This document shows, one piece after another, positions 14,220 through 37,904 of a stretch of 39,030 bases of DNA. The notes below the pieces were generated by a model. It searched no databases, was not told the DNA's origin, and worked only from the letters and a program-made list of their open reading frames with translations. The DNA lies in contig JASANZ010002047.1 in the NCBI GenBank assembly GCA_030849805.1, forward strand, positions 1 through 39,030. Direction: 5' to 3'. Source of the DNA: Sergeia podlipaevii (taxonomy: Eukaryota; Euglenozoa; Kinetoplastea; Trypanosomatida; Trypanosomatidae). Made by a program: the position numbers and the translations under genes. Each line of letters opens with the position of its first letter. The stretch's first letter is position 1.

Positions 14220-15798
14220 TGGTTAACAACTTCTTTAGTTATTGTCTATGTGCTCCATAGCAATGTACTGGATGAGGACTATGAGCAGAGGAGAGGAACC
14301 GACGTCTTTGAGTTCGTGAGCGCGCGCGCATTTAGGTGAATAGAAATAATAATAATAATAATAATATCAAATGCAATGGAGTTGAGTGAGGAAGAGACTT
14401 TAAAATATGACTAAAGGGTGAACACCAAAGAAAAACACATCAGTGGCAAGTTAGAGGCAGTCAGTAAGCCAATAACAAAAAAAAGAAAAAGGAGAGTAGG
14501 GTGCTGGTGAAGGGCCGTGTGTTGGGTCAGGAAAAGAAAGAAGAAAAAAAAAGAGAGAGAGAGAGAAAGAGAGAACTAGCGGATTTGTATTTTTTTTTTG
14601 TTTTACTATTATTTTTTACTATTTATTACTACTACGACAACTATGACGATAATCTCCACATATAATGTGAGGGTGCAGTACACACACAAACAAACAAAAC
14701 CCCCAGAAAAAAAAAAGCATATAGATACACAAGCCATGCATATATACCGCCCAAATATGGTATTTGCCGCCGAGAGGGAATGTGCGCAACTGCACTAAGG
14801 AAAAACCTTCACGATGAGCGGGAGAGAAAGAAAGAGGGGGCGAAGAACGAAGGTAAAGTAAGCTTTCTTAGTGCGCTATTCACCTCTCCGATGTAGTTGT
14901 TGTTTTTTTTTCTTTGCAACAACTCATGTCTAACATTTTTATACATCTTCTTTTTTTCCATTCCCTCTTTCTCTCTCTCTCTCCTTTTTTTGACTACACC
15001 TTTATATCTTGATATGGCTTTAACACATAGCGCCTCTACCGTTTGCGCAGGAGGATTCAGCCAAATCGTGGCGCTGCATACACACGCAGCTTGCATATAG
15101 TTTTAGCTCTTCCTTTCTTTCTTTCTTTCTTTATTGGTGAAGAAAACAAGAAGTCGAAACGATAGTTGCATCTCCTTGGGTATTTTTTTTTGGATATCTT
15201 AGTTTTCTCCCACACCTTTACTCCCTTGGTTCTTCTCGATCCTTTTTTTTTTGGAAAGTTTCTGAAAAGAACGTCACCAACACCCCTAGGCACACCATCA
15301 TTTTTATTACTATTATTATTATTTTTTCTCGTTCATTAGTATTACTCATCTTTTTTTTTACTTACTTTTTTCTTTTGCTTTTTTTGCTTTTTTTTTAAGG
15401 AAACTTTTGTTTTCTTCGTAGACGTGTGCGACACCAACAAAGAAGCGTGTTTGTACTGCCGCTGCTGTAGATATATATATATTTATTTATTTATTTATTT
15501 ACTTATTTTTGTCTTTTTGTTGTTACTGTTGTTGTTCTGTATACTGTAGTGAAACACCTTCTTTTTTTTTCGTTTAGCAGTGTTATTCTTTTTTTAATAA
15601 ACATATTTTTTCCCCCTGGCTATATAAACATTTCTTTCCCCTATTATTCCTCACAAAGCAAGATTTTGAAAACTTTTTTTTTTTTTGAAGCTCCGTGTAC
15701 AATTTTTTTTTAATCAGCAAATAAGGAAATAGCAACACAGCCAGAAAGACCCAACAGCATCACAACGGTTGTGTATTCCTCCGCCTCTCTATAGGATT

Positions 15799-15877
15799 CC
15801 CTTTTTCTGTTTGCTCATTTTATTTTTAATTTTTTTTCTTCTTCCTCCTCTCAAACTGCATAAACTACGCACGCCAG
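15799..15877 (+). promoter_or_regulatory. Candidate trans-splice acceptor for the repeat/LRR protein
   Basis: A pyrimidine-rich tract (CCCTTTTTCTG... to CTTCTTCCTCCTCTC) is followed by AG at 15876-15877. The leader from there to 15990 lacks ATG, so 15991 is the first start codon. Confidence 0.45.
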
Positions 15878-15990
15878 AGAGTCGTCACCATTATCAAGCA
15901 CAGACACACACACACGAGTGCGAAAGTTCATTTTTTAAAAAAGGGCAAAAAAAAAAGAAGGAGAGGAGGAAAAATAATAAACAGAAAAAC

Positions 15991-18900
15991 ATGGATTTCA
16001 TACTAGACACAGCCAAGCAAGCATCTTTAGAGGAGAATGACGATGGTACCACAGTCTCGGTCCCTCTCCCCCCGGGTCTTCACCTCTTTGAGCTATGGAA
16101 GCAACGCATGAGGGCAAAGTCGAATGCCACCACTCTCACTGCCGCTGATTCTTCTCCTGCTGAGTCAGAGGTCTCACCCCAGCCCACAACACCTCCACCA
16201 GAACGTACCGATCGTATGGAGAAGAGGGATGCAACTGTGAAACCCGATGAAAAAGAAGAAGACGAATACCTTGCTGGTGGCTACGAGGCTTCCGAGTTTG
16301 AAGTGGCACAGTGCGATGACATTACTGGCGCTGAGCGCAGGGCAGGTCACAACAGCACTGTCGCCGAGGCCGCTGTCGAACACGACTGCATCGGCGACTT
16401 TGCGCACGTAGTGGAGAATGAGGAGACGCAGCCTAGCGGCTCTTTCGACATTGTCAGGTACATGGCAGGGGAAGAGCAAGAGGCCGAGCCGACGGAGGTG
16501 CCACTAACCGCAACGGAGGAGCAGGAGGCCACTGCCAAGCCAGCGGAGGAGGAAGACGACGAATACCTTGCTGGTGTCTACGAGGCTTCCGAGTTTGAAG
16601 TGGCACAGTGCGATGACATTACTGGCGCTGAGCGCAGGGCAGGTCACAACAGCACTGTCGCCGAGGCCGCTGTCGAACACGACTGCATCGGCGACTTTGC
16701 GCACGTAGTAGAGAATGAAGATTCCCCACCAGCTCTGGTGGGCACCTTTGACATGGCCAAGTACATGGCTGGAGAAGAGCAAGAAGAAGCTGCAGTATCC
16801 TTCTCAGACAAGGATTCTCCCACCACAGCTATTGAGGAGCAGGAACAAGAATGGACGCAGCATACAAAGGTGTTTCCCGGTGAGGACTGGGGTGTCCTGC
16901 TAGAGAATTCACAACTTCTTACAGGTGCATTCAAGGCAGACGTATGCGAGGCGTGCGACCTCGTCACCAAGGATGTGCGCCACGTGGAGTTTGCACTTGG
17001 AAGCCTGCATGTCTGCTTTGAGTTAGGTCATTCTTCTGAGGTGACACGCCAGCAAATGGATAATCAACTGGAAGTTGCGCCGTATACACGTATGATGGCA
17101 CTCTACGGGCTCTTGACGAAGCGGACGACGCCTCCAGACACGCCAATTCCTGTTCCGTGTACATCTCTTCAGGCGAGAGAGGCCCAGCAAGGCGAAGAAC
17201 ACAGTGACGCTGTGACTAGCGGCAAGCAGTGTAATTGGACAGAGGCAAGCAGTACCGTGGCAGATGCCACTGAGAACTGGAACGAGCTCAGCACCATCGA
17301 TGAGAACAGTGATGAGGAAGAGGATATCAAGCGGCACCCTACAGTGGTGGAACGGCGGTCTAAGGTGCTCGAAGAACCCCCGTATCTTCCTGACGCCGTG
17401 ACCGACGAGTTCAACCATCACGAGCAGCTCGTTGGTGGTTACGAGATGGAGGGGGAGTTTGCAGTGGCGGAGTGCGACTGTGGGTGCGGGGATGTGGGCC
17501 ATGTCAGCCACACTCCCAAGCAGAGCTCTCCCTCTGCTGCTGTTGCTGTTGAGGTCGTGCCTGCTATGGATGGCTCTGTGCTTGCCGCTACAGAGGAGGA
17601 GGAGGCGCAGCCCTTGGGCACCTTTGATATGGAGAGGTACATGGCTGGCGAGGAGCAGGATCTTGGTCCTGACACGATGGTCACAGTTGTGCAGAATGAG
17701 GTCGTGGAAGACCCTGGGACTGGATTTGAGGACACGTTGCCTTACCTGATGTCTGGCCCTCGCGAACAAGGTCCACAGGTTTTGGTTGTCAAGGCATTCC
17801 ACAAGAAGGTCTTTGAGGGTGATGAATGGCACTTGCTGATCGATCAACGAGACGTCATCCGGGCCGCTTTTACAACTGACGTTGCGGATGCGTGTGGTGT
17901 GGATGTGTCTCAGGTTGGGGACACCGTGTTCACACTGGGTAGCCTGCAGGTGAGCTTCTCCCTTCCTTCCACCTCTACGAGAACAAGCGCGGACACAGAC
18001 AACCTACTCGCCTCGTTTGATTTTCCACGCATGACCGCCTTGTACGCTCGACGCCATCTTGCTCTCAGCTCACCGAGAACTGTGGCGGAGATGGTAGCGG
18101 CGAATGAGCGTGAGCTTCGCTCGCACAGTGTCCACGAATACGGCCCCATTGAAGCTCTTCACACAGCCGAACATTTGCAAAGTGAGCATGCAGAGGAAAA
18201 CGATGAAGAGCAGCAGCAGGAGGCAGAATGCGACGCTGAAGCCACAAACAGCTCTGAGAACTGGAACGAGCTCAGCACCATCGATGAGAACAGTGATGAG
18301 GAAGAGGATATCAAGCGGCACCCTACAGTGGTGGAACGGCGGTCTAAGGTGCTCGAAGAACCCTCGTATCTTCCTGACGCCGTGACCGACGAGTTCAACC
18401 ATCACGAGCAGCTCGTTGGTGGTTACGAGATGGAGGGGGAGTTTGCAGTAGCGGAGTGCGACTGTGGGTGCGGGGATGTGGGCCATGTCAGTCACACTCC
18501 CAAGCAGAGCTCTCCCTCTGCTGCTGTTGCTGTTGAGGTCGTGCCAGCTATGGATGGCTCTGTGCTTGCCGCTACAGAGGAGGAGGAGGCGCAGCCCTTG
18601 GGCACCTTTGATATGGAGAGGTACATGGCTGGCGAGGAGCAGGATCCTGGTCCTGGCGCGATGATGACGATCAACAGTCCTGGTACACCCAAGAAGGATG
18701 AATGCAATGCAACAGCGAGCACTTGTAACCGCCCCATCGATCCCCCGCGACAAAGTAGACAAGAAATGATTGGAGCCAGCAGCAAGGTGGAGTCGCTGAG
18801 ACTCGAAGTGTCCAACGCACACAGGCGAAAGGTTAGCATTATCGTGTATGAGACGCCGCTCATGCGAGAGGAGGCGTGTGTGTCTCCTACATTCACTTCC

Positions 18901-20130
18901 TTCTCTGAGAGTGGGTCCTGCAGCAGCGCGAGGCTTGAACGGCTAACAAGTGTGGCGCTAGGCAACAACGATACGTGCTCCGCCGCAGAGGCCGCCCCTG
19001 CCGTTTGTCAAACATTGCGGGAGGAAGAAACAGAGGAGCAGGAAAAGCGACGGAACAGTGTCGATATGAAGAAGCGAAGCTGGAGCACCGGACCAGCAGA
19101 AGTGGCAGAAGGTGGTGCCGATGCTTCCTACTACCAGGAATCTCCTCCGCAGAGTGCGCGTGCTTCATTGCCCGTGCATGGCACTCTCGACGGCACCATC
19201 AGTACCTACGACGCCAACCCGATGCTTCCCCAGTTCCGGAGCATCGTTACCAAGGGTTTCGCCGGTCTACGGCCCCTGCAGAACCCTTATCGTGATCAAG
19301 CTTTTAAGGGTGCCAGTGCGGCGCTTGATATGTGCTATCCGCTGAACGCTCTCAGGGATGGCATACGTACTCCAGAAGACCTCTACAAGCACTACTGCCG
19401 CTGCTTTCACATTCAAGTCAATCATGAGGTGGTGAAATCCTTCAGGGATGCCACCATCGCTGGCTCTGGACCCGCGGTACTCGCAGAGGCGGAGGCGTCC
19501 TCCTCGTGTGATAAGCGTCAGCGTGACTCGGTAACGTGGAAGGAGCTTCTTGATCCTGCGAACTTGTCCACTATTTATGATATCCGCATCCCACATCTGC
19601 TCTTCAAGGACGCGGGTTTCCTGCCTGTGCTGGAGGTGCTGCGGTGGAGCCCGAACGTTTCTTCGCTTGATATCTCTGGCAACGGTCTCAGCAATGAGGC
19701 GGTGGAGTGGCTTGCGCACGCCGCGCTTGAGTGCGACAACGCACCACTTTTGCAAACCACGATTTACAACTTGCTTCACAAGGGGTTGCCTGATAGCGCT
19801 TCAGAAAGCGAGGAGGAGAAGAAGAGGTCACCCAGGACGGACGCAGAGGTGGCGGAGACGAATGGGGTGTCTACTGCGTTCGTTGTCCTGCTGCGCGAGC
19901 TGGAGCCACTGGGGGACACGCTGAGTAGCATGTATGACACATCCTTTGGGCAGGTGCGCTTTATCGGTGCTAATTGCAACCGCTTCTCTCTGGGTGCTGT
20001 GCGCTTGACAAAGAGACTGCTCAAGGCACGTCCGAACTTATCTCGGGTGGGGATGGTAGGCACTGGGGAAAACATTAACCTTATCAATGGCAAAATCCCC
20101 AAGGTCAATAAGCACCGCATGATTCTTTAA
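15991..20130 (+). CDS. Modular repeat protein with two FAZ1-like domains and LRR-like C-terminus
   Basis: 1379 residues. Function unproven. Module order: A1 (~90-163), A2 (~187-264), domain F1 (~287-376), B1 (428-557), F2 (~596-690), B2 (756-885), a charged linker, then an LRR-like region (~1071-1379). A and B share a core containing an 'L-GGYE...EF-VA-CD' motif and ending FDM-YMAGEEQ, which occurs four times. F1 and F2 share G(E/D)(D/E)W--L(L), AF--DV--AC and a F-LGSL-V-F pattern. From memory this resembles the conserved globular domain of trypanosomatid flagellar attachment zone proteins (FAZ1 type); that needs a profile search. The C-terminal part has PNVSSLDISGNGLSNEAVEW and a second RFIGANCNRFSLGAV unit, typical of leucine-rich repeats. 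The protein is very acidic, with no signal peptide or membrane helix. ATG 15991 was chosen because the in-frame extension upstream starts with TTG and is pyrimidine-tract translation. Confidence 0.85.
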   Translation: MDFILDTAKQASLEENDDGTTVSVPLPPGLHLFELWKQRMRAKSNATTLTAADSSPAESEVSPQPTTPPPERTDRMEKRDATVKPDEKEEDEYLAGGYEASEFEVAQCDDITGAERRAGHNSTVAEAAVEHDCIGDFAHVVENEETQPSGSFDIVRYMAGEEQEAEPTEVPLTATEEQEATAKPAEEEDDEYLAGVYEASEFEVAQCDDITGAERRAGHNSTVAEAAVEHDCIGDFAHVVENEDSPPALVGTFDMAKYMAGEEQEEAAVSFSDKDSPTTAIEEQEQEWTQHTKVFPGEDWGVLLENSQLLTGAFKADVCEACDLVTKDVRHVEFALGSLHVCFELGHSSEVTRQQMDNQLEVAPYTRMMALYGLLTKRTTPPDTPIPVPCTSLQAREAQQGEEHSDAVTSGKQCNWTEASSTVADATENWNELSTIDENSDEEEDIKRHPTVVERRSKVLEEPPYLPDAVTDEFNHHEQLVGGYEMEGEFAVAECDCGCGDVGHVSHTPKQSSPSAAVAVEVVPAMDGSVLAATEEEEAQPLGTFDMERYMAGEEQDLGPDTMVTVVQNEVVEDPGTGFEDTLPYLMSGPREQGPQVLVVKAFHKKVFEGDEWHLLIDQRDVIRAAFTTDVADACGVDVSQVGDTVFTLGSLQVSFSLPSTSTRTSADTDNLLASFDFPRMTALYARRHLALSSPRTVAEMVAANERELRSHSVHEYGPIEALHTAEHLQSEHAEENDEEQQQEAECDAEATNSSENWNELSTIDENSDEEEDIKRHPTVVERRSKVLEEPSYLPDAVTDEFNHHEQLVGGYEMEGEFAVAECDCGCGDVGHVSHTPKQSSPSAAVAVEVVPAMDGSVLAATEEEEAQPLGTFDMERYMAGEEQDPGPGAMMTINSPGTPKKDECNATASTCNRPIDPPRQSRQEMIGASSKVESLRLEVSNAHRRKVSIIVYETPLMREEACVSPTFTSFSESGSCSSARLERLTSVALGNNDTCSAAEAAPAVCQTLREEETEEQEKRRNSVDMKKRSWSTGPAEVAEGGADASYYQESPPQSARASLPVHGTLDGTISTYDANPMLPQFRSIVTKGFAGLRPLQNPYRDQAFKGASAALDMCYPLNALRDGIRTPEDLYKHYCRCFHIQVNHEVVKSFRDATIAGSGPAVLAEAEASSSCDKRQRDSVTWKELLDPANLSTIYDIRIPHLLFKDAGFLPVLEVLRWSPNVSSLDISGNGLSNEAVEWLAHAALECDNAPLLQTTIYNLLHKGLPDSASESEEEKKRSPRTDAEVAETNGVSTAFVVLLRELEPLGDTLSSMYDTSFGQVRFIGANCNRFSLGAVRLTKRLLKARPNLSRVGMVGTGENINLINGKIPKVNKHRMIL
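16258..16782 (+). repeat. Tandem A modules within the repeat protein gene
   Basis: The stretch from about 16259 to 16420 recurs almost base for base at about 16556-16715. It encodes the EYLAGxYEASEFEVAQCDD... unit. The two copies end with diverged versions of the FD-YMAGEEQ motif (about 16443-16480 and 16747-16782). Confidence 0.85.
17272..17660 (+). repeat. B module, first copy (~390 bp)
   Basis: Nearly identical to 18256-18644, at a fixed offset of 984 bases (328 codons). I saw only about four base differences, one of them changing Pro to Ser. It encodes ENWNELSTIDENSDEEED, the Cys cluster CDCGCGD and the YMAGEEQ end motif. Confidence 0.9.
18256..18644 (+). repeat. B module, second copy (~390 bp)
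   Basis: This is the partner of 17272-17660. Such high nucleotide identity, including synonymous sites, points to recent duplication or ongoing gene conversion. Confidence 0.9.
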
Positions 20131-25049: not shown

Positions 25050-28000
25050 ATGGATGCTTCCATCGCTCATTCGCAAAGTGTGGCGACGCAAATCAACCGA
25101 GGCCGCTCTGCACGTTTTGATGATTTCTTTGATAACAAATGGCGTATCTTCCCCTTCATGTCGGAGCTTCAGGCCGTAGCGGGTGAGTACCCTATGGTGT
25201 TCATCTACGTGCATGTAGTCGTCGATGTACTGCAGATTCTTTCTTTCTCCGTACTTCCTCAGAACTGCTGGGGTACCGTCATGACTGGAATCACCGAGAC
25301 CATCAATTTCACCCACTTACCCGTGTACGACTACCTCGGTGGCAACTTCTACGCCACATTTGTTATCGCAGCGATATTTGTCGTACTATATGCCATTCAG
25401 TTCGCCTATATCATTGTGCAGTGTTTTCGTATGAGGAACTATGTAGCTGGCTCCGCCGCGCTGAGCTCCACCTTCTTTCATATGCTGCGTGCCTACGTTT
25501 ATCTAATGAGCAGTATTCTCTTTGTACCCCTTGTGGAAATACTTCTTTCGATCGCTTTCTCTAGTAAGGGCAGTAATCCGCGTCACCTGTCGTGGTTTTC
25601 ATCTATCCCGAGCGATGCCGCTGTCGCTCAAGTCGGCATCGCCCTCTGTGTGCTTGGTATGATCATGCACTCCACCGTTGCACATGTTGCTAACACGCAC
25701 TACGTAGAAATTGACATTGCTAGTATTCACCCTCTGCGACGCTCCAACACCGATCCAGACGATATCTATCTTTTGTTTCGCATTGTCAGTTGCATCTTAT
25801 ATCAATATTTTTACTCCGCAGGTAGCATGCAGTACTTCTGTATCTACATGGCTGTTGCTTCACTGCTGATGACGGCGCTCTACACCACAGTACTTCCCTT
25901 TTACAGTGAAAGGATGAACAAAACTCGTATCATGACACTTGCACTCGCCTGTGTGTTCTCTGTTTTTTCAGGGATTTCGCACGTGGATAAGGTGAGTGAA
26001 TTTTTTGTGGTACGTAATACCGGCCTCGATGCTCTCATCTTTTTGCTTTCTTTGCCGATTTTGGGGGTTTTGTTTTACCACACTATATGGCGTGCGCGCG
26101 TTTCACCTGTCTACCTGCACGCCATGCGCGAGCTCAAGAAGGGCAAGTTGTCTAACCCTGTTGTTCACATCCCCAAGAATCTGCCACGTGACGTGGAGAA
26201 CCTCACCCGATTTTCCCATCTTTTGGATGAGATTGAAAGCGCACGCTTATACGGCAACAACAATAACAACAACAACAACGATAACGATAACGACAATGGT
26301 CACATTGGTCTAGAGGAGGAGCTCATTACAAGACCTCGGTATGCAACCGAGGATGTGAGCGCGGACCCAGCGCTCGCCCAGATTTTTAGGACGCGTCACT
26401 TCCTCTCTCGCTTTATTGCCCCCTACGTCGACTCAATTGTCTTCTCTTCGGACGTCGAGGTGGCGGTGCGCTTTCTGCCAGCGTTTACAGAAACAACGGG
26501 GATTGACATCTCTGGGTACCAGCTTCGTTACGCCACCACTGTGTACCTCAAGGCACTCAGCAAGTACCCCACAGACTGCCTGCCACGCCTCGCCTTTGTC
26601 ACCTTTCTACTCTATCAGTGCAATCACCCGCAGGTGGCTCTTACGTATGTCCGTGAACTGAGAAGCAAGGAGGCCCCACTGTGGCTCAGCTTTCTCGCGT
26701 GGAGGCTGGAGGCAGAAATCAGCAACCGTCTGCATCTTGGCCAGAACAACCGCGTCGCCGCTCTCAATAAGGCAAAGGACGTGCATCGCAAAGCAGTGCA
26801 CAGCACGACCGACTTGTGGCATGTATTAATGGACAAGGATCATCAGTTTTCCGACATTTCCGCTGCCAACACCGCTCTCATGCGCTTTACCAACGAGAGC
26901 AAGCTGCGCTATGAGACGTTGCTTGCCAGTGACCCAGGGAACCTCGAGGTCCTTTCTTGCTACGCGATCTTCTGCGATCAGGTTCTGGATGACAGGGAAA
27001 TGGCGAACCAGTGCACGCAGCACATCCGTCAGGCCGTTGAGACCAGGCATCAGGACAAGATGCGTGGAGCCAAGATGAAGGGAGCTATTGGTGCCTCCCT
27101 GACCCAGCTGAAGCTTTCACTGGCGGTCGCGTCAAACAACATGAAGCAATTCGCTCGTGTGTCGCGCGTCAAGTTTCTCTTCGCCGTGTCCTTGTTGCTT
27201 GGGCTTTTCAGCTTGATATGTATGGTGATGGTTCTGGTATTCATGGTTCTCAAGTATGAGGCAATTCATAACACAGAGCACTGCATGTATTATTTAGGCC
27301 AGTTGCGAGTGTTGACGACACAAATCGCACTTGGCGCGCGCACTATCAAGGAAAACAACCGCCTCAATGTGGACACAGCGAAGGAAGTCATGAGCAACAT
27401 GATAGCGCTTCGTAACGATTTCATTTCACTCTACAATGAGATGATGTTTGGAAAACATAGCCGGAGCACGATGCTTGTGAAGGCCTTCTTCCGTGACTTG
27501 GCAGTGCGCCAGATCGACTCCGGCATTATTATTCATCTGTGGGCATACATTGGAGTGTCACTCGGCGCAGTGCAGGATGTCGTCTCACACCCGAAAGAGT
27601 CCCTGTATACGGACTGGATCGCAGAGGAGTTCAACAGTGAGCTCACGCTTGCCCTCACCACCACATCGGACACCCTTATCTCTCAGTGCGAGCAAGATGG
27701 ATCTAAACTCATGTATATTTGCATTCCCCTTCTTGCCGCCAATGTGACAATTATGATCATTGGCATTCTTATTTTTTTCAACAGCGTGTATAAGGTCAAG
27801 GGCGTACGTGCGATCACATTTACCCTACTGAAGCTCGTGCCGTTTTCTGAGATTCGTCGCATTCACAAGCGCTCGTTGCGGCAGCACTTTACACTTGATG
27901 CTTTTCTCACCTTAAGTACCCGTGACAAGGTGATGAAGCTCATTGGGGCCTCGGAGGAGGCGGAGAAGCAACGGATGGCGACACAGGTCACCAGAGGAAG

Positions 28001-31000
28001 CCACAAGCACCGGTCGCTGCTACAGGTGGTAGCAGATATCAGCGGCACCTCTATGCGGTACTTGATCAGTGCGGAGGACCCCTCAGCGGGTATGGACGCT
28101 AGCACCACTGCCACTGGCGCGAACACCGCTTGGGCGACCAGTGCTGTAGCCGCGTCTTCGTCCTCCATGGGATTGTACGGAAGAGGAGGAGGAAACAAGA
28201 AGTCAACGATCAACGGAGAAGAAAGCACCGACGCTGCTGACGACGGAGCGACACAGGAACGCTGCTGTCGTCAGAGGAGCGAGGACGAACTCGAGGTCAG
28301 CAACAGCAGCAGCGATGAGGAGGAAAATAGCGGTGAAGACGGAAGCAGTACTTTCGACAGCGACGATGACTATGAGTGCCACGAGGGTGTGGTCAAAGAG
28401 TACGGCGCCGCTTGTTACGAATATGGAGAGGAGGACAATGAAGGTGACAAATCAAAAGCCTCTCACGCTGTGGGTCAAGGATCTCCGTATGGTCAGTTTG
28501 GGACTGCGATGGGCACCCCAGCAGACGCTGCTGGTAAGACCGGTCAGACGAAGAGATGCAACGAGAGACGAAAGCGGCGCGAGAGACTGCGCGCTTCGCG
28601 GCGACGCCGACAGGCCCGAGAGCAGCTGCTGCTGGAAGGTATTGTCTCTGAGCAGTCCTATATATTGAGTCGCGACCGCAGCACCAGCGATGATGTCGCG
28701 TTTTCTCGCAATTCCATCATTTTATTCGTGGCGCTGGTTCTGATGATGGTGGCTGTGGTGGTGGTGAACATACTAGCCATCCCACACCCTCGTGATACGC
28801 ACGCCTTCTACTCTGGAGTCATGAACAGTGATATGGTCGTGCGCAATGTCAAGGTCAACGTAGTCTTCTCGCTGCTTAACACCGCTTTTTTTGTTATTCA
28901 AGGCAGTCAGCGGTACTACAATGACTATATTGTCATGCGCAGTCAGGAACAGTGGGAGGCGCTGCGTACCACATACGCGGATCGCCTGACAGACCCCGCC
29001 TTCGCGGCTCTTTTCTTTGAGCTCTCCACAATGTATGAGGGAATCATAGAGATACTCGACATTGCACTGCGTTTTGCGTGCTCCACGTTCAAGGATAACT
29101 GCGCTACCAATCGAATCCAGTTTGAATACACTTACATTAACTCGGTTCAGTGGGGAGATGAGGAGTCGCTCATTATGACACGCCAGGCTGCTGCAGCTGG
29201 CGTCTACAACACATATTTTGGCGTGTTGAAGGGGTCCCAAGTTGATCTTGCCCAGACACCTCAGCAGCAACTAGAGATGGCAAAAAAACTGCTGACTTCT
29301 GACCTTCTGAACGACTACGTTGACCAGTTCTTCCAAAAGCTCAGTCACATCAACGGCAACCTCAGCAACAGCGATAGCGACTACGCTTTTCTGTATGGTC
29401 TCATCTCCCTTATTCTCGGCGCGGTTGCTACGGTAGGCCTCGCAGCTTCGACTGTGTATTTACTTTTCAAGAAGTCACGGGTCATGTCATGTTTCATCAC
29501 TATTTTTCTTCGCGGTATCTCGTTTTTATTACTTGTTTCTGTTGTGGTGCTTTCCATTGTCAATGTGACACACTTGAACGAGGTGAAGGTGGACGTGTAC
29601 ATGAAGGAATCCCGCGAGGTGTCGAACAAGTGGAATCTTGTCTTGTACAGCTCTTTCTGGTACCCACTTATGTACGTTGCCACACATGACATGGAATGGA
29701 ATCTCAAGTATCGAAACTTGAGAACGGAATATAGCAACGAGCTCCTTCTCAAAGACCTCTCCACCGTTGGCGGTGTGCAGTTCACTGCGGCGGATGAGCA
29801 GCAGCTGGATGACGCACAACGGCTCTCAATGATTACGATGGCGCTGATCTTTGCGGCGACTAAAGACGACCCAGGTATACAGCCATACTCTAGCATCTTC
29901 AACGACGAGTACCTCTCCACCTACACCTGGGACTTTCGAGCCCAGTCAGACTACTATGTGACCCTTGCCAAGTACGGTAGCGTCGATATCTTCTACTCTA
30001 CAAATGAGGCAGATCTCCAGCTACCCCGTGCGGGTATGATTAACCTCGCCATGAACACACTCATCTCCAACCGACAAGATAACTCCATAGAGGTACTCAA
30101 CTCCTACGTACTCCGCTCCGATACACTTGTGAACATTCGTCTCGCGAAGGATGGCGTCACCCTTGACAAGCAAAGCCAGTTGTTCTTCATTACGATGATT
30201 CTCTCCATCGTGGCTCTTGGTTGCCTTGTCGTGGGCTTCATGTACACTTTCGTGATATTTACGCTCGACATTGTATTTGTCAACCGGCGCAACACAAGGG
30301 TCGGAATCGGCACAAGTGCCGGGAGCAAGTCCTCTGGGATGCCACCAAGCGTCGAAGAAGCAAAGGCGGAAGCACACAACGAGCAAACGAAGCAAGTTAC
30401 CACCATCACCAACGGTGGCGGCGGCAGAGGCAACGCAGGTGCTGCTGCCACTACTGCTGGCAATCACAGCATGAAGAATTACAGCAGCAGCATCGAGTTG
30501 GGAAAGAACAGCAACAACAACAACAACAACAGTCAAGGACAGTTCCAACCGTCACACACAGGAAGCCACTTGAGTATTGTTGCCAAGTCATCACAGCAGA
30601 CGACGCTGGTGTCAGAAAATCAGGAGAGGTCTCATGGCAGTGGCAAGAGCGTGTGCCGCGTGGTGGCGCCTTTCGTGTCCTTTGCTCTCATTATCATCAC
30701 CACAGTCATTGTGATTGTTCTTCTCCCTGTCTTCACAAATACAGTGAACGGGATGAGTAAGATGACTATTGAGTCTACCGAGCGTGGGTGGATTGTGGCT
30801 CAGACGATGTATCTTGCAAAACAAATTAATGACGACATGTCCTACTACGCCACGGTCTCCGAGAACCTCAACACTCTCTACAAGCGACATTCCACGCTTC
30901 TCAACGCTCTATACTTCAAGGACATGATGGACGTCAACAGTGGCTACGGCTTCATCACACACGACCAGACTCAGGATGACTTTCTCTTCTCCCGCAATGA

Positions 31001-34000
31001 GTTTTACAGCGAACTGCACTTCTTGGGTCCGCGCAGCCAGGACGACTCTAACGAGGACTTTGAGACGCTCTACGTCGCGGGAATCGATGAGTACACCAAA
31101 AAGGATCCCACGTCACCTTTCTTTTGCAGCTACAAGGTGCAGACGGAGGTGATGGTGCAATATAGTCGCGGTCTGGGTCTCTTCTACGATGTGGTTTGGC
31201 CAGGCACCATGCGTGCTACGTTCGATGGAGAAACTGCGAGTTTTGTAGAGGCTTTCACCGTGATTAGCAACATGTACCGCAACACTCTGATTGGTGTCGC
31301 GCAGTCCGATTACATCTATAACAACTTTTCTGAGGGCAAGATGCAGCAACTTTTTATTGTATCGATCGCATTCACTGCTCTCACGATTTTGATCATTTTG
31401 ATCTCCGTATTGTGCACATGGCTGCCGTTCGCGAAGTATCTGATGCAAGAAGACGCCCAAACGCGTCTGATGATCCGCTCCGTGCCCTCTGATATTCGCG
31501 AGAAGTTCCCTGTTTTTACACAGTTTCTCAGTAACCGCGCCCATACGTTAACGGATGAGGAGCGTGTGGATCAAACGATGAAGGAGATGGCAAAGAGCGC
31601 CGTTGTGGCGAGTGATGCCAATGGTGTTATTATTCGCTTTAATGACTTGGCAGAGGAACTGTTTGGGTACAACGCGGCTGAAGTAATTGGTCGTAATATT
31701 TCCCTTCTCATGGATGCGGCAATGGCGGAGAAGCACCAGCAGTATCTGGACAACTTCGATGAGACCAGCATACATTTTAGCAACCGCACACGTGAAGTGG
31801 AGGCGCGACGGAAGGATGGCAAGTTGCTCGACACAACCGTACGAGTCAACAGTATGCGCCTCTCTGACACCGGCGAGACGATATTTATTGCCTTTTTTGA
31901 GGAGATTGGTGACCGTGCTCGTCTGGCGCTGCTTGAGCAGATCAACCGTACCGCCATTGAGATGAACCCCGACGGTATCATTCTTATCGACAACACCGGC
32001 ACGATGCTGCGCGTGAATGAAGCTGTCGCCGCCTCTTTCCGCTATGATCCCGAGGAGATGGTTGGTCAGAACGTCAATATATTGATGCCGGACGACATTG
32101 CACAGTTCCACAACAGCTACCTGCGGCAGTACATGGACACCGGCGTGAAGCGGAGGATCGACGCCACGACTAACATACCTGGCAAGCGCAAGGATGGCAC
32201 CGAGTTTCGTCTCAACATCACAATAACCGAGCTGAAGAACTCGAGCGACCAGACCTACTTCCTAGGCTATCTCGAGGACACCACACGCTCCCGCGAGCTT
32301 GAGCAGATGCGCGGCCTGTACGAGACGGCGGTGAATCTTTCACCAACGCCTATCATTACGGTTGACAGCTCGTGTGCCATCGTCGGCTTCTCCAAGTCTG
32401 CGAGCGAACTCTTTCAGTACAAGCCGGAGGAGCTCATTGTTTCTGGTCCAAGCTGGGTCAGCGATATCAACACACTCATTCCTGAGCGCTATGAATGCAA
32501 TCACATGAACGATATTTTTGGCGAGAAGGGCATTCTAATGCGTAACACAGATATGCAGAGCGACACGGCAGTGGTGACGGCGAACGTGACGGCTGAGCGT
32601 AAAGACGGCACTGCGGTGCCAGCTGCACTTATCGCATGTGATATCCAGCCGGACCCAATGATTTTACGGAACCGCTTATTTCTCACGTTTCTCAGCGACA
32701 CCTCACGCGAGGCCCACCTCGAGGACATGGGCAGGCTTGCCACCGCTGTGTTTGAAACTAATGCGTACCCTGTAATGGTGTTGGACTACACTGGCGTCAT
32801 CACCTCCGTCAACCGCAGCGCACTGGAGTGTTTTGGTGTGTCGTCAAAGTACGAAATGATCGGTGAGAACTGCAGCGCGTTCACGTCCGAGGCGGATGAA
32901 ATGGGCATTATTGAGGAGCAGATTGTCACTGGTGGTGGACACAAGGTGGAAACGGATGAGACAGAGATTGAGTCTGCTGCTGTGCAAGACGACAAGAAGA
33001 TCATCGCCAATCTCGCTGAGGAGAAGGCGAATATCACGAAGAACCACGTCTGGCTTGGAGAATACCCACGCACTCTGCAGAAGGGGAGGTACTTCAACTG
33101 CAACCGCAGCATGGTGGCCAAGAGGAAGGATGGCACAGCGTTCCCACTTGAGCTGCGCCTCGTAGAGGTAAGCGGTACACCTAGCGCGAGCCCCCTCGTG
33201 ATTGCGTTCCTGCGCGACCTCACTGAAGATCAGCGCATCAGCCAGAGCTATCACATCAGTGAGACCCTTGAGGATGTGTGCCCTACGGGCATCCTCGTGG
33301 TGGACCTCAACGGTCGCATCACACACATCTCATCTGCCGCCGAGGAGTGTTTTGGCTATCACTCGAGTGCCGTGCTGGATGCCAATGTGAAGGTGCTGAT
33401 CCCCTCGCTAAGTCACCCGTCAGCAAGCGACAGCGGTGGCGTTGGCAGCGCAGATGCCTCCTTCGCGCGCCACTCGAACTCTCCCGGAAGTCGTGCCAGT
33501 TTTCTCAACAACAGCGCGAGTCGCAACGACCACAACAGCTCTCTGGGCGCTCCCAACGTTCAGTCCGTTGGTGTAGCAGGCGGTAGCGCAAGTGACGTAC
33601 CGACTATTCTGTTGAATCACGTTGCTGGTGAAGGCAGCCACACAGTGGTCGCACGCCGCAGTGATGGGCGCCTCTTTCCTCTTGAAATTCGCGTCGAGCA
33701 GCTGGATATGCAGAACCCTCGCGACGTTCCACTTTATGCCGTCTTCTGCAGCGATACCACCAGTGAGGTGCAGGGCCGCCAGTTTGCCTCCTTCCACAGA
33801 AGTCTTCGTGGCATGTTGGATATACCGTTTGTTCTATTAGATAGCTCGGGTAACATAGTGTCCGCGAGCGAGCCCTTCTTGAGTGACTTCCGTTACAAGA
33901 ACGGCGAACTTGGCTCACTAATGGGCAAGTCGTTTGCCAGAATGTTCATTTCCTCCACAGCAAGGGACACCTATACAAAGGCCATGGAGGCGTTCATCCG

Positions 34001-37000
34001 TGTCTGCGACGGGGCGAGAAAGGCTGCCGTTGCAACCGGCGCGACCATGTCCTCCGAAACGGACGGCACCTCGTGTACTATTCTCAACGATGGCAGCAGG
34101 ACTGTTCGGATACGCTGTGCAGACGGCACAGACTTCTTTGCTAGTTGCAGGCTTGTGGGCATGAACTCAATTCATACCAGCTCTGTCAGCTTTGTGCTCT
34201 TTGTGGAGCCATACAACGTGCAGCCAGAGGAACAGCTTGCCTCCCACATCAACGATGCGGTGATGGATATGGCTCCGGTCGCCTCGGTCATCACCGACCT
34301 GCACGGGTGCATTCTGCGCGTCTCCGGGGCAGCAGCAGCGCTCTTCGGCTACGACAATGTAGAGGATCTTGTCGACCTTTCGATCAATAAGCTCATGCCG
34401 ACCGATATTGCGGCAGAGCACGATGAGTACTTGGCGACTTTCATGGCTAATTTCTTGGCTGTGCACAACGCGGCGAACGGTGCTGACACCAATGGAGACC
34501 AGGTAGTGGCGGCGAGCGAGAAGGAGATGACCACAATGAAACGTATTACTCAGCAGACTGCCCTGCATAAGTCCGGTCGCTGCTTCCCTGTTGAAATAGT
34601 GATGCGTGTTGCCGAATGTCGCGGCGCACAGCCTCTCTTTGTGGTTTGCATCCGCAGTCTGGAGCTCAAGCAGCAGGCAGCAAGCATGTGCCTCACCAAC
34701 TCCATTATGCTCGAGCAACTGCCACTGTGCGCGGTGGTCACGACGCGCGAAGGCACCATTGAGCAAGTAAACTGGACTCTCTGCCACGAGTTTGGTTACC
34801 GCAGCAGCGGCGAGCTGGTGGGCAAGGATGTGGGCGTGCTCATGACGAGCGAGGATGCGCAGTATCACAAGCGGCACATCGCGAACTATCTGCGGACCAA
34901 GATGAAATTTGCTCTGGGCAACACGGTTGTGCGCAACGGCCGCAGGGAAAATGGCGAGGTGTTCCGTGTAGCGATACACGTGAAGGAGGTTACGCCAGCC
35001 TCTCAGGATCCAAAGGATATTCGCTTTGTAGCTTATATGGTGCCGGAAGGAGGCGACAGCCGCGGCGCAACTCTTGGTCCAAGCGGCACGATTGTCACAG
35101 ACGTGCGTCGTGCCATTGGTGAGGCGAGTCGCGTGAAGCGCGGAAAGGGAGGTGCGGAGAGGGTGTTGCCCCAGCACGAGATCAACGGCCGTCGCGTGCG
35201 TCACCTTGAATCGTGGCTGCGCGAGCCAGGTCTGTCGTTTGCGATTGTAGATGAGCAGGGTAAGATCCTAAATTTATCTGCTGCGGCAGAGGCCACCTTT
35301 GCGTGCGTACAAGATGAAGCCACGGGCAGGCACTTGTCCTTCCTTCTTTCCCGCGAGAGCCACAGGAGCGAGATGTACGGCACAGTGAGCAACATCCTGG
35401 ACGTGCTGAACCGCGTAGGCATCGATGCACACGGCGCTGTAAATCAAGTGGGTAGCAATGCCAATGCTACTGTCACCCAAAGAGGGGACGACAGACCGTA
35501 CTCTGGCGTCTCAGACTCGTATGGCGAGGACCTGGGACAGTCCACCTACCTCCATAACAATCTACCAGAAGGAAGGGGAGGCGCGAACGTCAGCAGCATG
35601 GACCCACGCAGCATCGACTCGGTCACCCTTCCCCCCACTAAGGAGCTCGTCGACTCTCTGCGACAGCGGAGGACACTCGTGCAGCGCCGCTCTGGAGAGT
35701 GGTTCCCAGTGGACATGCGATGGAGCCGTGTCGATAGTAGCGCTATCGTTTCATTTGTTGGTGACACGGAAGGGACCGCATCCGAGGTGGCGACGTCTGT
35801 GGGCACCGCAGGAGGAGGCGGCAATCTTGGACTCCATGGACGCGTGTACGTGGTGGTTCTGGAGGATCTCAGTAAGCAGTGCGAGGCCATGCGGCTCAAA
35901 GAGCTGTACGACGGCGCTATTGAGCTGTGCACGGCGCCGACTGTGTTCGCGGACAGTCGAGGTGTAGTGAAAGTGTTCAATGCGGCAGCAGAAAAATGCT
36001 TTGGGTACACTGCGCAAGAGGTGCTTGGCAAGAATGTGAAGTTGTTGATGCCTCGCAAGACCGCCGCTATGCACGATCGCTTTATGGAGACGTACCTCAA
36101 GACCGGTGTGGCGCGCATGCTGGGGTCTAACCGCGATATCACGGCCAAGCGTCGTGACGGTACTCACTTTCCGGCGACGATCATCTTGAAAGAGGTGAAA
36201 GAAACCGAAGGTCACTTTTTCATTGCTCACATTGTCGACAACACCGTGGCGACACAGAGCGAAATTATAGGTGTGCTTGGGCGTGCGGTGCTCACAGAGA
36301 CCTCTTCCGCTGTACTAGTCTTGAACGCGCAGGATGCCGTGATGCAAGCCTCTCCACATGCAGTTCGGTTGCTTCAGTACAGCGACCATGAGGCCGAACT
36401 TCTTGCCCCCGTGACGCCATCTTCCCCATCTGTGATCACCGAGCGCATTCTGTTTGGTGGCTCTTTGCACACGTACACTGCCTTTGTACGCGACTCTATT
36501 AAGAATCGCCACAAGTCGTTTGCTAACCTGGGCAGTAGCAGCAGCACCGTGGCTACCGCTGGCAGTACAGTGGGCGTCAAAAGCAGCACCGCGGAGGCTA
36601 CTTCGTCGCCCATGTTCTCCACTATTCGCAACAGCGACGATGTGGTGCAGCTTATGACAGCTGGAGCGCAGGTTGCTGGTGGGAGACTAGAAAATTCTAG
36701 CGCGGCGGCCGCGGTCTGCAGCGTCATGATGGGCACCGGCCCTTGTACTGTCATCCCCGCAGTGGCCCTTCGCTGCCGAGGCGGCGCCATGGCCACCGCT
36801 GATGTTGAAGTGCGTGTGGTGTTCTGCGGCACGGCGTACCTCGGCTGTGTGCTGCGTCTGAGACAGCGCCTCTTTGGTGGAGCACCCAGTCTTACCTCCC
36901 TCGCTAGCCCAGACGGCAATGACGCCGACACCGCGCTTGCCCTGCGCGACCAAGTTCTTGCGACCGGTTCGCTCAAATGCTTTCAGCGGCCGCTCTTCAT

Positions 37001-37904
37001 GCTGAACCGCAGCGGGCACATGTCCACGGTGAACCCTGCGCTGGCCACTACGCTTGGATACGCCAACGTGGGTGAGGCGGAGCGTGTGCTGGTGGGTATG
37101 TTAGTGAGCACGCTCTTCCCAGAAATGCAGATACCCGAGGCCGGCAACCGTAGCGCCAACGCACGAGTGCAAATCTCTCCCTCTACGTCCGTCACCTCTG
37201 CAGCCTCTCTCGGCTCTTGTGCTGCCACGATGGAGCATGAGCAGGTGTGTGTGGCTGCTCTTAGCGCCTTCACCACCCCGTCAGTGCTACCGGCCTCCGC
37301 GCAGGAGTCCGCAGTGGCAATGAGCGTGCAGAACGCGAATCCATCTCCGCGTGTGCTGAAGGCGGTATGCAAGGATGGTACAACGAAGAAACTGCTTCTT
37401 GAGCGCTTTGTTGGTCTCAGCACGCTACCACCAGCAGCGTCGTCGACTGACGCGGCCAGCGGCGTCCAGCAGCCCGCCACACAGCTCAGCGACATCCAAT
37501 TCTTCTTGGGTGAACTGGGCAACATTGAGACGGCGCACACGGCAGCAGTGCAGCACGAGGTGTCGCGGAACCTGCTGAGCGTATGCCCGCTCCCTATGCT
37601 CGTTGCTCAGGCCTCGACTGGTTCCATCATTGACGTCAATAACGCCTTGCTGCAGGAATTCGACTTCACTCGTGACAACGTCATTGACCAGAAACTGCAT
37701 GTTCTCTTGAGTAGGTCTACGGGGATAGGGTCGACGAGTGCGCAGGTGGACGATGCACTAATGCGGCAATTTGAAGTGGGACCCCCGCGCCGCGTCACAG
37801 GTGAGAGTCGTACTGGTCGCACGTTCTCGCTTGAGGTGGTAGTGGCTCCCGTCACCATCGACGAGGTCGCATGTCTTGTGATTTACATGACACCTGACAA
37901 GTAG
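25050..37904 (+). CDS. Giant polytopic membrane protein with 13 PAS domains (TmcB-like)
   Basis: 4284 residues. Probably a membrane-anchored sensor or scaffold. Eight hydrophobic segments lie near residues 48-70, 98-126, 148-170, 190-213, 241-261, 262-282, 292-308 and 325-346. Next come an Asn/Asp run (403-416) and a helical TPR-like region (~450-690). Four pairs of membrane helices follow: 709-736/887-914, 1222-1244/1445-1473, 1489-1509/1711-1744 and 1871-1897/2101-2127, each bracketing a loop of about 150-220 residues. Charged or Ser/Asn-rich linkers lie at about 1030-1215 and 1750-1865. From ~2180 to the end are thirteen PAS units. They repeat an FGY/FRY-type helix, a G-N/D-V-LM segment and the RKDGT-F hairpin. 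Membrane, TPR-like and PAS order matches what I recall of TmcB-like proteins annotated in protists. No kinase, cyclase or other enzyme domain is seen. Best PAS resemblance is to FixL-type domains. Confidence 0.88.
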   Translation: MDASIAHSQSVATQINRGRSARFDDFFDNKWRIFPFMSELQAVAGEYPMVFIYVHVVVDVLQILSFSVLPQNCWGTVMTGITETINFTHLPVYDYLGGNFYATFVIAAIFVVLYAIQFAYIIVQCFRMRNYVAGSAALSSTFFHMLRAYVYLMSSILFVPLVEILLSIAFSSKGSNPRHLSWFSSIPSDAAVAQVGIALCVLGMIMHSTVAHVANTHYVEIDIASIHPLRRSNTDPDDIYLLFRIVSCILYQYFYSAGSMQYFCIYMAVASLLMTALYTTVLPFYSERMNKTRIMTLALACVFSVFSGISHVDKVSEFFVVRNTGLDALIFLLSLPILGVLFYHTIWRARVSPVYLHAMRELKKGKLSNPVVHIPKNLPRDVENLTRFSHLLDEIESARLYGNNNNNNNNDNDNDNGHIGLEEELITRPRYATEDVSADPALAQIFRTRHFLSRFIAPYVDSIVFSSDVEVAVRFLPAFTETTGIDISGYQLRYATTVYLKALSKYPTDCLPRLAFVTFLLYQCNHPQVALTYVRELRSKEAPLWLSFLAWRLEAEISNRLHLGQNNRVAALNKAKDVHRKAVHSTTDLWHVLMDKDHQFSDISAANTALMRFTNESKLRYETLLASDPGNLEVLSCYAIFCDQVLDDREMANQCTQHIRQAVETRHQDKMRGAKMKGAIGASLTQLKLSLAVASNNMKQFARVSRVKFLFAVSLLLGLFSLICMVMVLVFMVLKYEAIHNTEHCMYYLGQLRVLTTQIALGARTIKENNRLNVDTAKEVMSNMIALRNDFISLYNEMMFGKHSRSTMLVKAFFRDLAVRQIDSGIIIHLWAYIGVSLGAVQDVVSHPKESLYTDWIAEEFNSELTLALTTTSDTLISQCEQDGSKLMYICIPLLAANVTIMIIGILIFFNSVYKVKGVRAITFTLLKLVPFSEIRRIHKRSLRQHFTLDAFLTLSTRDKVMKLIGASEEAEKQRMATQVTRGSHKHRSLLQVVADISGTSMRYLISAEDPSAGMDASTTATGANTAWATSAVAASSSSMGLYGRGGGNKKSTINGEESTDAADDGATQERCCRQRSEDELEVSNSSSDEEENSGEDGSSTFDSDDDYECHEGVVKEYGAACYEYGEEDNEGDKSKASHAVGQGSPYGQFGTAMGTPADAAGKTGQTKRCNERRKRRERLRASRRRRQAREQLLLEGIVSEQSYILSRDRSTSDDVAFSRNSIILFVALVLMMVAVVVVNILAIPHPRDTHAFYSGVMNSDMVVRNVKVNVVFSLLNTAFFVIQGSQRYYNDYIVMRSQEQWEALRTTYADRLTDPAFAALFFELSTMYEGIIEILDIALRFACSTFKDNCATNRIQFEYTYINSVQWGDEESLIMTRQAAAAGVYNTYFGVLKGSQVDLAQTPQQQLEMAKKLLTSDLLNDYVDQFFQKLSHINGNLSNSDSDYAFLYGLISLILGAVATVGLAASTVYLLFKKSRVMSCFITIFLRGISFLLLVSVVVLSIVNVTHLNEVKVDVYMKESREVSNKWNLVLYSSFWYPLMYVATHDMEWNLKYRNLRTEYSNELLLKDLSTVGGVQFTAADEQQLDDAQRLSMITMALIFAATKDDPGIQPYSSIFNDEYLSTYTWDFRAQSDYYVTLAKYGSVDIFYSTNEADLQLPRAGMINLAMNTLISNRQDNSIEVLNSYVLRSDTLVNIRLAKDGVTLDKQSQLFFITMILSIVALGCLVVGFMYTFVIFTLDIVFVNRRNTRVGIGTSAGSKSSGMPPSVEEAKAEAHNEQTKQVTTITNGGGGRGNAGAAATTAGNHSMKNYSSSIELGKNSNNNNNNSQGQFQPSHTGSHLSIVAKSSQQTTLVSENQERSHGSGKSVCRVVAPFVSFALIIITTVIVIVLLPVFTNTVNGMSKMTIESTERGWIVAQTMYLAKQINDDMSYYATVSENLNTLYKRHSTLLNALYFKDMMDVNSGYGFITHDQTQDDFLFSRNEFYSELHFLGPRSQDDSNEDFETLYVAGIDEYTKKDPTSPFFCSYKVQTEVMVQYSRGLGLFYDVVWPGTMRATFDGETASFVEAFTVISNMYRNTLIGVAQSDYIYNNFSEGKMQQLFIVSIAFTALTILIILISVLCTWLPFAKYLMQEDAQTRLMIRSVPSDIREKFPVFTQFLSNRAHTLTDEERVDQTMKEMAKSAVVASDANGVIIRFNDLAEELFGYNAAEVIGRNISLLMDAAMAEKHQQYLDNFDETSIHFSNRTREVEARRKDGKLLDTTVRVNSMRLSDTGETIFIAFFEEIGDRARLALLEQINRTAIEMNPDGIILIDNTGTMLRVNEAVAASFRYDPEEMVGQNVNILMPDDIAQFHNSYLRQYMDTGVKRRIDATTNIPGKRKDGTEFRLNITITELKNSSDQTYFLGYLEDTTRSRELEQMRGLYETAVNLSPTPIITVDSSCAIVGFSKSASELFQYKPEELIVSGPSWVSDINTLIPERYECNHMNDIFGEKGILMRNTDMQSDTAVVTANVTAERKDGTAVPAALIACDIQPDPMILRNRLFLTFLSDTSREAHLEDMGRLATAVFETNAYPVMVLDYTGVITSVNRSALECFGVSSKYEMIGENCSAFTSEADEMGIIEEQIVTGGGHKVETDETEIESAAVQDDKKIIANLAEEKANITKNHVWLGEYPRTLQKGRYFNCNRSMVAKRKDGTAFPLELRLVEVSGTPSASPLVIAFLRDLTEDQRISQSYHISETLEDVCPTGILVVDLNGRITHISSAAEECFGYHSSAVLDANVKVLIPSLSHPSASDSGGVGSADASFARHSNSPGSRASFLNNSASRNDHNSSLGAPNVQSVGVAGGSASDVPTILLNHVAGEGSHTVVARRSDGRLFPLEIRVEQLDMQNPRDVPLYAVFCSDTTSEVQGRQFASFHRSLRGMLDIPFVLLDSSGNIVSASEPFLSDFRYKNGELGSLMGKSFARMFISSTARDTYTKAMEAFIRVCDGARKAAVATGATMSSETDGTSCTILNDGSRTVRIRCADGTDFFASCRLVGMNSIHTSSVSFVLFVEPYNVQPEEQLASHINDAVMDMAPVASVITDLHGCILRVSGAAAALFGYDNVEDLVDLSINKLMPTDIAAEHDEYLATFMANFLAVHNAANGADTNGDQVVAASEKEMTTMKRITQQTALHKSGRCFPVEIVMRVAECRGAQPLFVVCIRSLELKQQAASMCLTNSIMLEQLPLCAVVTTREGTIEQVNWTLCHEFGYRSSGELVGKDVGVLMTSEDAQYHKRHIANYLRTKMKFALGNTVVRNGRRENGEVFRVAIHVKEVTPASQDPKDIRFVAYMVPEGGDSRGATLGPSGTIVTDVRRAIGEASRVKRGKGGAERVLPQHEINGRRVRHLESWLREPGLSFAIVDEQGKILNLSAAAEATFACVQDEATGRHLSFLLSRESHRSEMYGTVSNILDVLNRVGIDAHGAVNQVGSNANATVTQRGDDRPYSGVSDSYGEDLGQSTYLHNNLPEGRGGANVSSMDPRSIDSVTLPPTKELVDSLRQRRTLVQRRSGEWFPVDMRWSRVDSSAIVSFVGDTEGTASEVATSVGTAGGGGNLGLHGRVYVVVLEDLSKQCEAMRLKELYDGAIELCTAPTVFADSRGVVKVFNAAAEKCFGYTAQEVLGKNVKLLMPRKTAAMHDRFMETYLKTGVARMLGSNRDITAKRRDGTHFPATIILKEVKETEGHFFIAHIVDNTVATQSEIIGVLGRAVLTETSSAVLVLNAQDAVMQASPHAVRLLQYSDHEAELLAPVTPSSPSVITERILFGGSLHTYTAFVRDSIKNRHKSFANLGSSSSTVATAGSTVGVKSSTAEATSSPMFSTIRNSDDVVQLMTAGAQVAGGRLENSSAAAAVCSVMMGTGPCTVIPAVALRCRGGAMATADVEVRVVFCGTAYLGCVLRLRQRLFGGAPSLTSLASPDGNDADTALALRDQVLATGSLKCFQRPLFMLNRSGHMSTVNPALATTLGYANVGEAERVLVGMLVSTLFPEMQIPEAGNRSANARVQISPSTSVTSAASLGSCAATMEHEQVCVAALSAFTTPSVLPASAQESAVAMSVQNANPSPRVLKAVCKDGTTKKLLLERFVGLSTLPPAASSTDAASGVQQPATQLSDIQFFLGELGNIETAHTAAVQHEVSRNLLSVCPLPMLVAQASTGSIIDVNNALLQEFDFTRDNVIDQKLHVLLSRSTGIGSTSAQVDDALMRQFEVGPPRRVTGESRTGRTFSLEVVVAPVTIDEVACLVIYMTPDK
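25191..31430 (+). other. Membrane and loop region of the giant PAS protein
   Basis: Encodes residues ~48-2127, with sixteen predicted membrane segments by eye. The first eight are closely spaced, like a transporter- or receptor-like block. The last eight form four pairs around helical loops, a layout reminiscent of ligand-sensing loops of chemoreceptors. If the first eight helices return the chain to the cytosol, each later loop is extracytoplasmic and each linker cytosolic. The topology is inferred. Confidence 0.65.
26256..26297 (+). repeat. In-frame AAC/GAT microsatellite (Asn/Asp run)
   Basis: Encodes eight Asn followed by alternating Asp and Asn (residues 403-416) between the membrane block and the TPR-like region. 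A similar six-Asn run lies at 30513-30530 (residues 1822-1827). Both sit in linkers, so length variation would be tolerated. Confidence 0.9.
31587..37901 (+). other. Array of 13 PAS domains
   Basis: Approximate residue spans are 2180-2290, 2299-2418, 2422-2560, 2561-2731, 2735-2910, 2913-3066, 3068-3212, 3213-3338, 3386-3617, 3617-3738, 3740-3942, 3964-4158 and 4160-4284. Regular units are about 120 residues. Units 4, 5, 9, 11 and 12 are lengthened by Ser/Gly/Thr- or acid-rich inserts, mostly before the RKDG hairpin. Units 1, 2, 7, 8 and 10 keep a His at the FixL proximal haem-ligand position (H2229, H2354, H3124, H3273, H3675). Units 11-13 are the most diverged. Confidence 0.8.
35898..36270 (+). 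other. PAS domain 10, FixL-like haem-binding candidate
   Basis: Residues ~3617-3738. After GKNVKLLMPRKTAAMHDRFM comes a YLKTGVARMLGSNRDITAKR segment and then RDGTHFP. Counting from H3675, R3695 is exactly 20 residues later. This matches the H200/R220 spacing of Bradyrhizobium FixL, and the following KRRDGT aligns without a gap. Haem binding is inferred, not shown. Confidence 0.6.

Follow-up and report, generated by a model that had tools for sequence, protein, structure and literature searches.

The 39,030-nucleotide stretch of Sergeia podlipaevii DNA analyzed here (contig JASANZ010002047.1 of assembly GCA_030849805.1; hereafter, the window) encodes a giant membrane protein that combines TPR repeats of the TmcB type with an array of PAS domains at its C-terminus. 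We propose that PAS10, the tenth PAS match along this protein by profile, probably binds haem through its residue H3675, a reading that draws on sequence comparison and a structural model. Which ligand such a haem would prefer is less certain than haem binding itself. PAS10 would thus be a FixL/DosP-type PAS domain that retains the haem site of its subfamily, in which H3675 on helix F-alpha would hold a b-type haem and R3695 and M3690 would lie distal to it. It is no isolated oddity, being one module in a family of multi-PAS giants.

PAS10 is homologous to the PAS domain of FixL in sequence (phmmer E value of 9.6e-19 against RmFixL) and in modelled fold, which places it in the FixL/DosP-type subfamily (cluster 3 of Xing et al. 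2023). From the histidine onward, 16 of 42 residues are identical to those of Bradyrhizobium japonicum FixL (BjFixL) in an ungapped alignment, including a Tyr at +7, a Gly at +17, and KRRDGT at +25 to +30. An earlier sequence-only reading, which already called the domain PAS domain 10, had pointed to these shared residues and to the 20 residues separating H3675 from R3695, as they separate His200 from Arg220 in BjFixL; the alignment bears out all of this. That reading had also taken the spacing as a haem signature, which holds for the register within a homologous PAS domain but not for the bare distance. Since H/R pairs 20 residues apart number four in the protein, against a mean of 5.55 in 500 shuffled versions, the bare spacing carries no signal and can be put down to chance, an explanation that we reject for the register. 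One further such pair falls within a PAS domain, namely, H2666/R2686 of PAS4.

The modelled fold agrees with this register. The superposition on the FixL PAS structure that the sequence-only reading had called for was made with an AlphaFold model of PAS10; for 11 of the 13 FixL rows, 105-111 residues superpose at 1.2-1.5 Å. H3675 lies on the modelled F-alpha (model helix 70-86), in register with His200, and R3695 lies on the modelled G-beta (model strand 95-101), in register with Arg220. At the positions that we take to form the hydrophobic distal triad of FixL-type haem-PAS domains (Ile215, Leu236, and Ile238), PAS10 has Met, Ile, and Leu; all three are hydrophobic, though that Met impairs O2 binding in SmFixL.

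By these sequence comparisons, the spacing of 20 is a trait of the subfamily and not an independent coincidence. In an alignment of bacterial loci (A1), 32 of the 35 rows have both residues and one more has the His only, a rate that is biased upward because the loci were found partly by motif-containing patterns and 35 of 41 were aligned. We reject convergence on this ground, as the pair arrives with the FixL-type subfamily. A second sample, drawn from 12 bacterial genomes, comprised 30 PF00989 matches. Eleven of them were judged by eye to be FixL-type, and these have the His in all 11 cases and the Arg in register in 10; among the other 19, the His occurs once, beside an insertion, and the Arg never. 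The genomes had been chosen for holding FixL-like PAS domains, and six of the 11 FixL-type domains are, by eye, those used for choosing; when these are set aside, 5 of 24 matches are FixL-type, five with the His and four with the Arg. According to passages of Xing et al. 2023 (PMC10468136), "more than 9700 (60%)" sequences of the FixL/DosP cluster share this invariable His, which is named there as the primary determinant of haem binding.

Conservation singles out PAS10 within its own array. The profile detects 12 PAS places in the window protein, and a possible 13th is seen by eye at residues ~3740-3790. The His is present in seven of the eight PAS domains in which both columns are aligned, and three of these have the Arg as well; of the three, PAS1 has a spacing of 19 and PAS4 is interrupted by an insertion. 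A search with the TPR region yielded a single orthologue, P0070 (34% or 32% identical in two alignments), and more divergent orthologues could escape such a search. Of the seven His places, P0070 shares those of PAS2, PAS8, and PAS10, and PAS10 alone has both His and Arg in the two proteins. It is also the most conserved PAS place, at 51% identity compared with 29-45% for the other seven, and P0070 keeps the equivalents of H3675 and R3695 together with Met, Thr, and Ser at the positions where PAS10 departs from FixL. The last PAS of P0070 has a His and an Arg 20 residues apart, and the window protein has lost the His there. The PAS2 pocket, with its His, an Arg at position 215, and a Thr at position 220, is the same in both proteins. 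To judge from these alignments, the PAS array of the window protein is a decayed one in which PAS10 is the best-preserved site.

The best five matches to PAS10 among the collected domains, a set from which P0070 is absent, are the tenth domains of five relatives with 13 PAS domains (47-51% identical), which suggests that PAS10 is the old tenth module. Two observations weaken this suggestion. The five relatives are close kin, consisting of P0003 and four proteins 55-71% identical to it, and among the top 100 matches position 1 is the commonest (17), with position 10 accounting for 9.

Several results weigh against haem binding. PAS2 matches FixL as well as PAS10 does (E value of 2.8e-20), despite having Arg and Thr in place of Ile215 and Arg220; as both PAS2 and PAS8 match FixL first, we rejected likeness to FixL as a test for haem. 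Among 52 domains of six kinetoplastid giants, which are related, so that p values are only a guide, the His is unlinked to a hydrophobic residue at 215 (21/36 domains with the His versus 9/16 without; p = 1) and not significantly linked to Arg220 (21/36 versus 6/16; p = 0.23), as fits haem loss in many of these domains. Some of the His residues in decayed kinetoplastid arrays may be structural or relict. In the same set, three other features do accompany the His, namely, Tyr or Phe at 207 (p = 0.0003), hydrophobicity at 238 (p = 0.008), and a spacing of 20 (p = 0.006). Within PAS10 itself, Ser replaces Ile218, and T3681 lacks the propionate contact of Arg206; according to passages of PMC10765370, SmFixL variants at the corresponding Arg200 still bind haem, so T3681 is no obstacle. 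About 40% of the FixL cluster is without the His, as stated in passages of PMC10468136, and the fold can therefore stand without haem. Finally, the PAS10 model matches structure 3mfx, whose row does not label it a haem protein, with a Z score above that for DosP.

These points are best gathered in an alternative scenario, unlikely on balance though to be taken seriously, in which PAS10 owes its FixL fold and most of its signature residues to descent, no longer holds haem, and serves as a dimerization or coupling module in a decaying array. Several PAS domains of the window protein have lost the His, the Arg, or the pocket character and are still recognized as PAS, PAS2 with its altered pocket scores equally against FixL, and three pocket residues of PAS10 are replaced. 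What this scenario accommodates poorly is that the orthologue P0070, with an identity of just 32-34%, has retained the His, the Arg, and the whole Met/Ser/Thr set, at the most conserved PAS place compared.

If PAS10 binds haem as we propose, analogy with characterized FixL variants makes a haem-PAS tuned to CO, NO, or redox the most likely form. Met at the Ile215 position occurs in none of the 35 bacterial rows of A1 and in none of 44 tenth domains of the relatives (Val in 36, Ile in 6, and Leu in 2); it is present in some other domains of the family. In passages of PMC10765370, the equivalent SmFixL variant, I209M, retained haem and CO binding, and the isolated protein gave no oxy spectrum. 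M3690 takes the place of an Ile that FixL needs to form a stable oxy complex, and for this reason O2 would be a less likely signal than CO, NO, or the redox state of the haem (possibly with His/Met ligation). The sequence-only reading had suggested O2, NO, or CO; the latter two stay possible, and O2 does not stand as a likely ligand. M3690 could ligate the iron, as Met does in DosP, where we take the ligand to lie at +18 from the His; the Met of PAS10 lies at +15. The ferrous spectrum of SmFixL I209M gives no hint of Met ligation in the same passages of PMC10765370.

Haem itself could be the signal. The sequence-only reading had noted the relevance of haem scavenging, and the genome accords with it: in the assembly searched (23.4 Mb in 576 contigs, possibly incomplete), neither ferrochelatase nor coproporphyrinogen oxidase has a match, and cytochrome c1 is present. 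By this evidence, the organism appears to use haem and to have to import it. The kinetoplastid marker KMP11 has five matches in this genome and none in 14 prokaryote control genomes. An exchangeable haem sensed by PAS10 would suit such an organism, and FlrB is cited as a haem-sensing PAS protein in passages of PMC13060918; conservation of the distal Arg, known from gas sensors, argues the other way, and we regard haem sensing as rather improbable. A true FixL-like O2 sensor with O2 held by R3695 has the poorest prospects, for the His/Arg pair on the modelled F-alpha and G-beta would serve it, but the Met at Ile215 and the behavior of SmFixL I209M speak against it. Both of these alternatives share haem binding with the reading that we favor, and their probabilities overlap with its own.

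Under that favored reading, the giant TmcB-type membrane protein would carry in its C-terminal tail a switch, PAS10, that responds to a gas or to redox state. A Pfam scan of the whole 4284-residue protein (E values up to 1; 11 families listed) found no kinase, cyclase, or other output domain, including the HisKA/HATPase output expected of a FixL kinase. For this reason, coupling between PAS domains would be expected to relay the signal, either to the TPR/membrane part or to partner proteins. The protein combines TPR_TmcB repeats, membrane segments, and a C-terminal PAS array, a layout shared with P0003 and P0004. Of its 17 hydrophobic segments, which are a Kyte-Doolittle hydropathy estimate rather than a topology prediction, 15 lie no farther along than residue 2121 and 2 fall within the PAS array.

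Two protein searches gathered 61 related long proteins (P0002-P0004 and P0008-P0065), with P0005 and six bacterial-type proteins kept apart. Of the 61, 48 have PF25474 in their domain lists. Two relatives (P0045 and P0065) are named "Sensor protein FixL" of Diplonema papillatum, and the rest carry EukProt or metagenome identifiers or none; several of the EukProt prefixes presumably denote diplonemids and prokinetoplastids, and not all relatives need be euglenozoan. When the count is limited to domains with a residue aligned in both columns, His and Arg (695 of 734), the His is found in 685 domains and the Arg in 518, with both at a spacing of exactly 20 in 475. In a non-redundant set cut at 50% identity (292 of the 734 domains), the His is the most conserved FixL column (278/289), just ahead of Gly163 (277/291), and the Arg220 column ranks 23rd (179/288). 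One His constant among domains less than 50% identical is what a metal-ligand site predicts; a structural role would fit too. At the position of FixL Gly217, not far from the distal Arg, 55% of 699 relative domains carry an Asp, a substitution peculiar to the family. The six bacterial-type proteins (P0006, P0007, and P0066-P0069, so treated for the histidine-kinase or response-regulator type domains in their lists) have the His in 2 of 21 domains and both residues in 1.

Exactly 13 PAS domains were detected in 44 of the 61 relatives, and the His is present in 570 of their 572 domains, the remaining two being gaps. Thirteen PAS domains, each with an F-alpha His, are thus the commonest form of the family, from which the window protein departs with its 12 detected places. 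Judged by sequence, it is possible that the 13-PAS relatives are poly-haem receptors. Among the open-licence PMC papers that our literature searches listed, in part the top matches of longer lists, we found no report of 13-PAS arrays in these protists.

Features of the giant protein in the window (window positions, 5' to 3'), with the residues discussed in the text
Feature	Position	Strand	Description
Intact open reading frame, giant membrane protein	25050..37904	+	4284 residues; TmcB-type TPR repeats and C-terminal PAS array
Membrane part, residues 50-2121	25197..31412	+	15 hydrophobic segments, 7 close to the N-terminus, then 8 at wider spacing (Kyte-Doolittle scan)
TPR_TmcB repeats (PF25474), residues 572-668	26763..27053	+	Pfam scan
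PAS array, residues 2185-4271	31602..37862	+	12 places by profile, some partial
H2354 of PAS2	32109..32111	+	His kept in P0070; Arg at Ile215 position, Thr at Arg220 position
H3273 of PAS8	34866..34868	+	His kept in P0070; no Arg at Arg220 position
PAS10, FixL/DosP-type PAS domain, residues 3630-3722	35937..36215	+	Sequence and model comparison
H3675, predicted proximal haem ligand (BjFixL His200)	36072..36074	+	Codon CAC; ungapped sequence and structural alignment; kept in P0070
T3681, replacing BjFixL Arg206/SmFixL Arg200 (haem propionate contact)	36090..36092	+	Thr in P0070 too
M3690, replacing BjFixL Ile215/SmFixL Ile209 (distal pocket)	36117..36119	+	Met in P0070 too
R3695, predicted distal Arg (BjFixL Arg220)	36132..36134	+	Codon CGC; sequence and structural alignment; kept in P0070

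The same genome holds three further giants with PAS and TPR_TmcB domains, on contigs C361, C537, and C572 (L009-L014), with one, four, and three domains, respectively, that have His and Arg 20 residues apart. The giant of C361 and P0005, compared as a pair, keep His and Arg in the last PAS. Shorter open reading frames of 1647, 2183, and 2180 residues on contigs C354, C550, and C388 (L029-L031) have a TPR_TmcB match and no listed PAS match. Long open reading frames on C261 and C229 (L015, L016, and L019) have one partial PAS match each, and by eye their C-terminal ends are Ser/Thr kinase-like. Elsewhere in the window, an open reading frame at 15769-20130 (+) carries the FAZ1 conserved domain (PF23398; E value of 6e-41), by name that of a flagellum attachment zone protein, and an EF-Tu/EF-1A-like GTPase with all three domains lies at 12056-13477 (+).

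Among known systems, FixL of Bradyrhizobium and Sinorhizobium shares with PAS10 the PAS subfamily, the His on F-alpha, the Arg on G-beta at the same spacing, and, in BjFixL, KRRDGT. PAS10 differs in its Met, Thr, and Ser for Ile215, Arg206, and Ile218 and in its setting, a long array within a eukaryotic membrane protein for which the scan found no histidine kinase. DosP (EcDos) belongs to the same subfamily by sequence and fold, and its His77 and Arg97 (R97 occurs in PDB titles) are, we presume, likewise 20 apart; unlike DosP, the window protein has no GGDEF or EAL domain in the same scan. Within the eukaryotes, the FXL proteins of Chlamydomonas have FixL-type PAS domains that reportedly bind haem, and given this precedent PAS10 would be a variant of a FixL-type haem-PAS already known in eukaryotes. 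Closer at hand, P0045 of Diplonema papillatum belongs to the same family, with PF25474 listed, and its array is intact, with 13 PAS domains, the His in 13 of 13, and the Arg in 8, whereas the window copy has one well-preserved site. The PAS-PGK of Leishmania and Trypanosoma cruzi is also a kinetoplastid PAS protein, but there the PAS is fused to a phosphoglycerate kinase, and it belongs to another family; according to passages of PMC7729029, the Leishmania enzyme was 20% more active in vitro with haem. The general idea of a haem-PAS in such organisms is therefore not new, and the surprise lies in the 13-PAS arrays.

To our knowledge, little is established about gas or haem sensing in kinetoplastids and their free-living relatives. 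We tentatively suggest, as a scenario that could well prove wrong, that diplonemids, kinetoplastids, and related uncultured protists possess giant membrane receptors with a tail of thirteen FixL-type PAS domains, each shaped to hold a haem; one chain would then offer as many as thirteen sites and work as a poly-haem sensor or a haem reservoir. In the lineage of the window, which would no longer make haem, decay of the array would have left PAS10 as essentially the sole canonical site, and an Ile/Val-to-Met change would have shifted it from O2 toward CO, NO, or redox. If true, even a single FixL-type haem site in a eukaryotic protein, and all the more so thirteen, would provide a concrete receptor, and the distal Met common to the window protein and P0070 would predict a defined shift of ligand preference.
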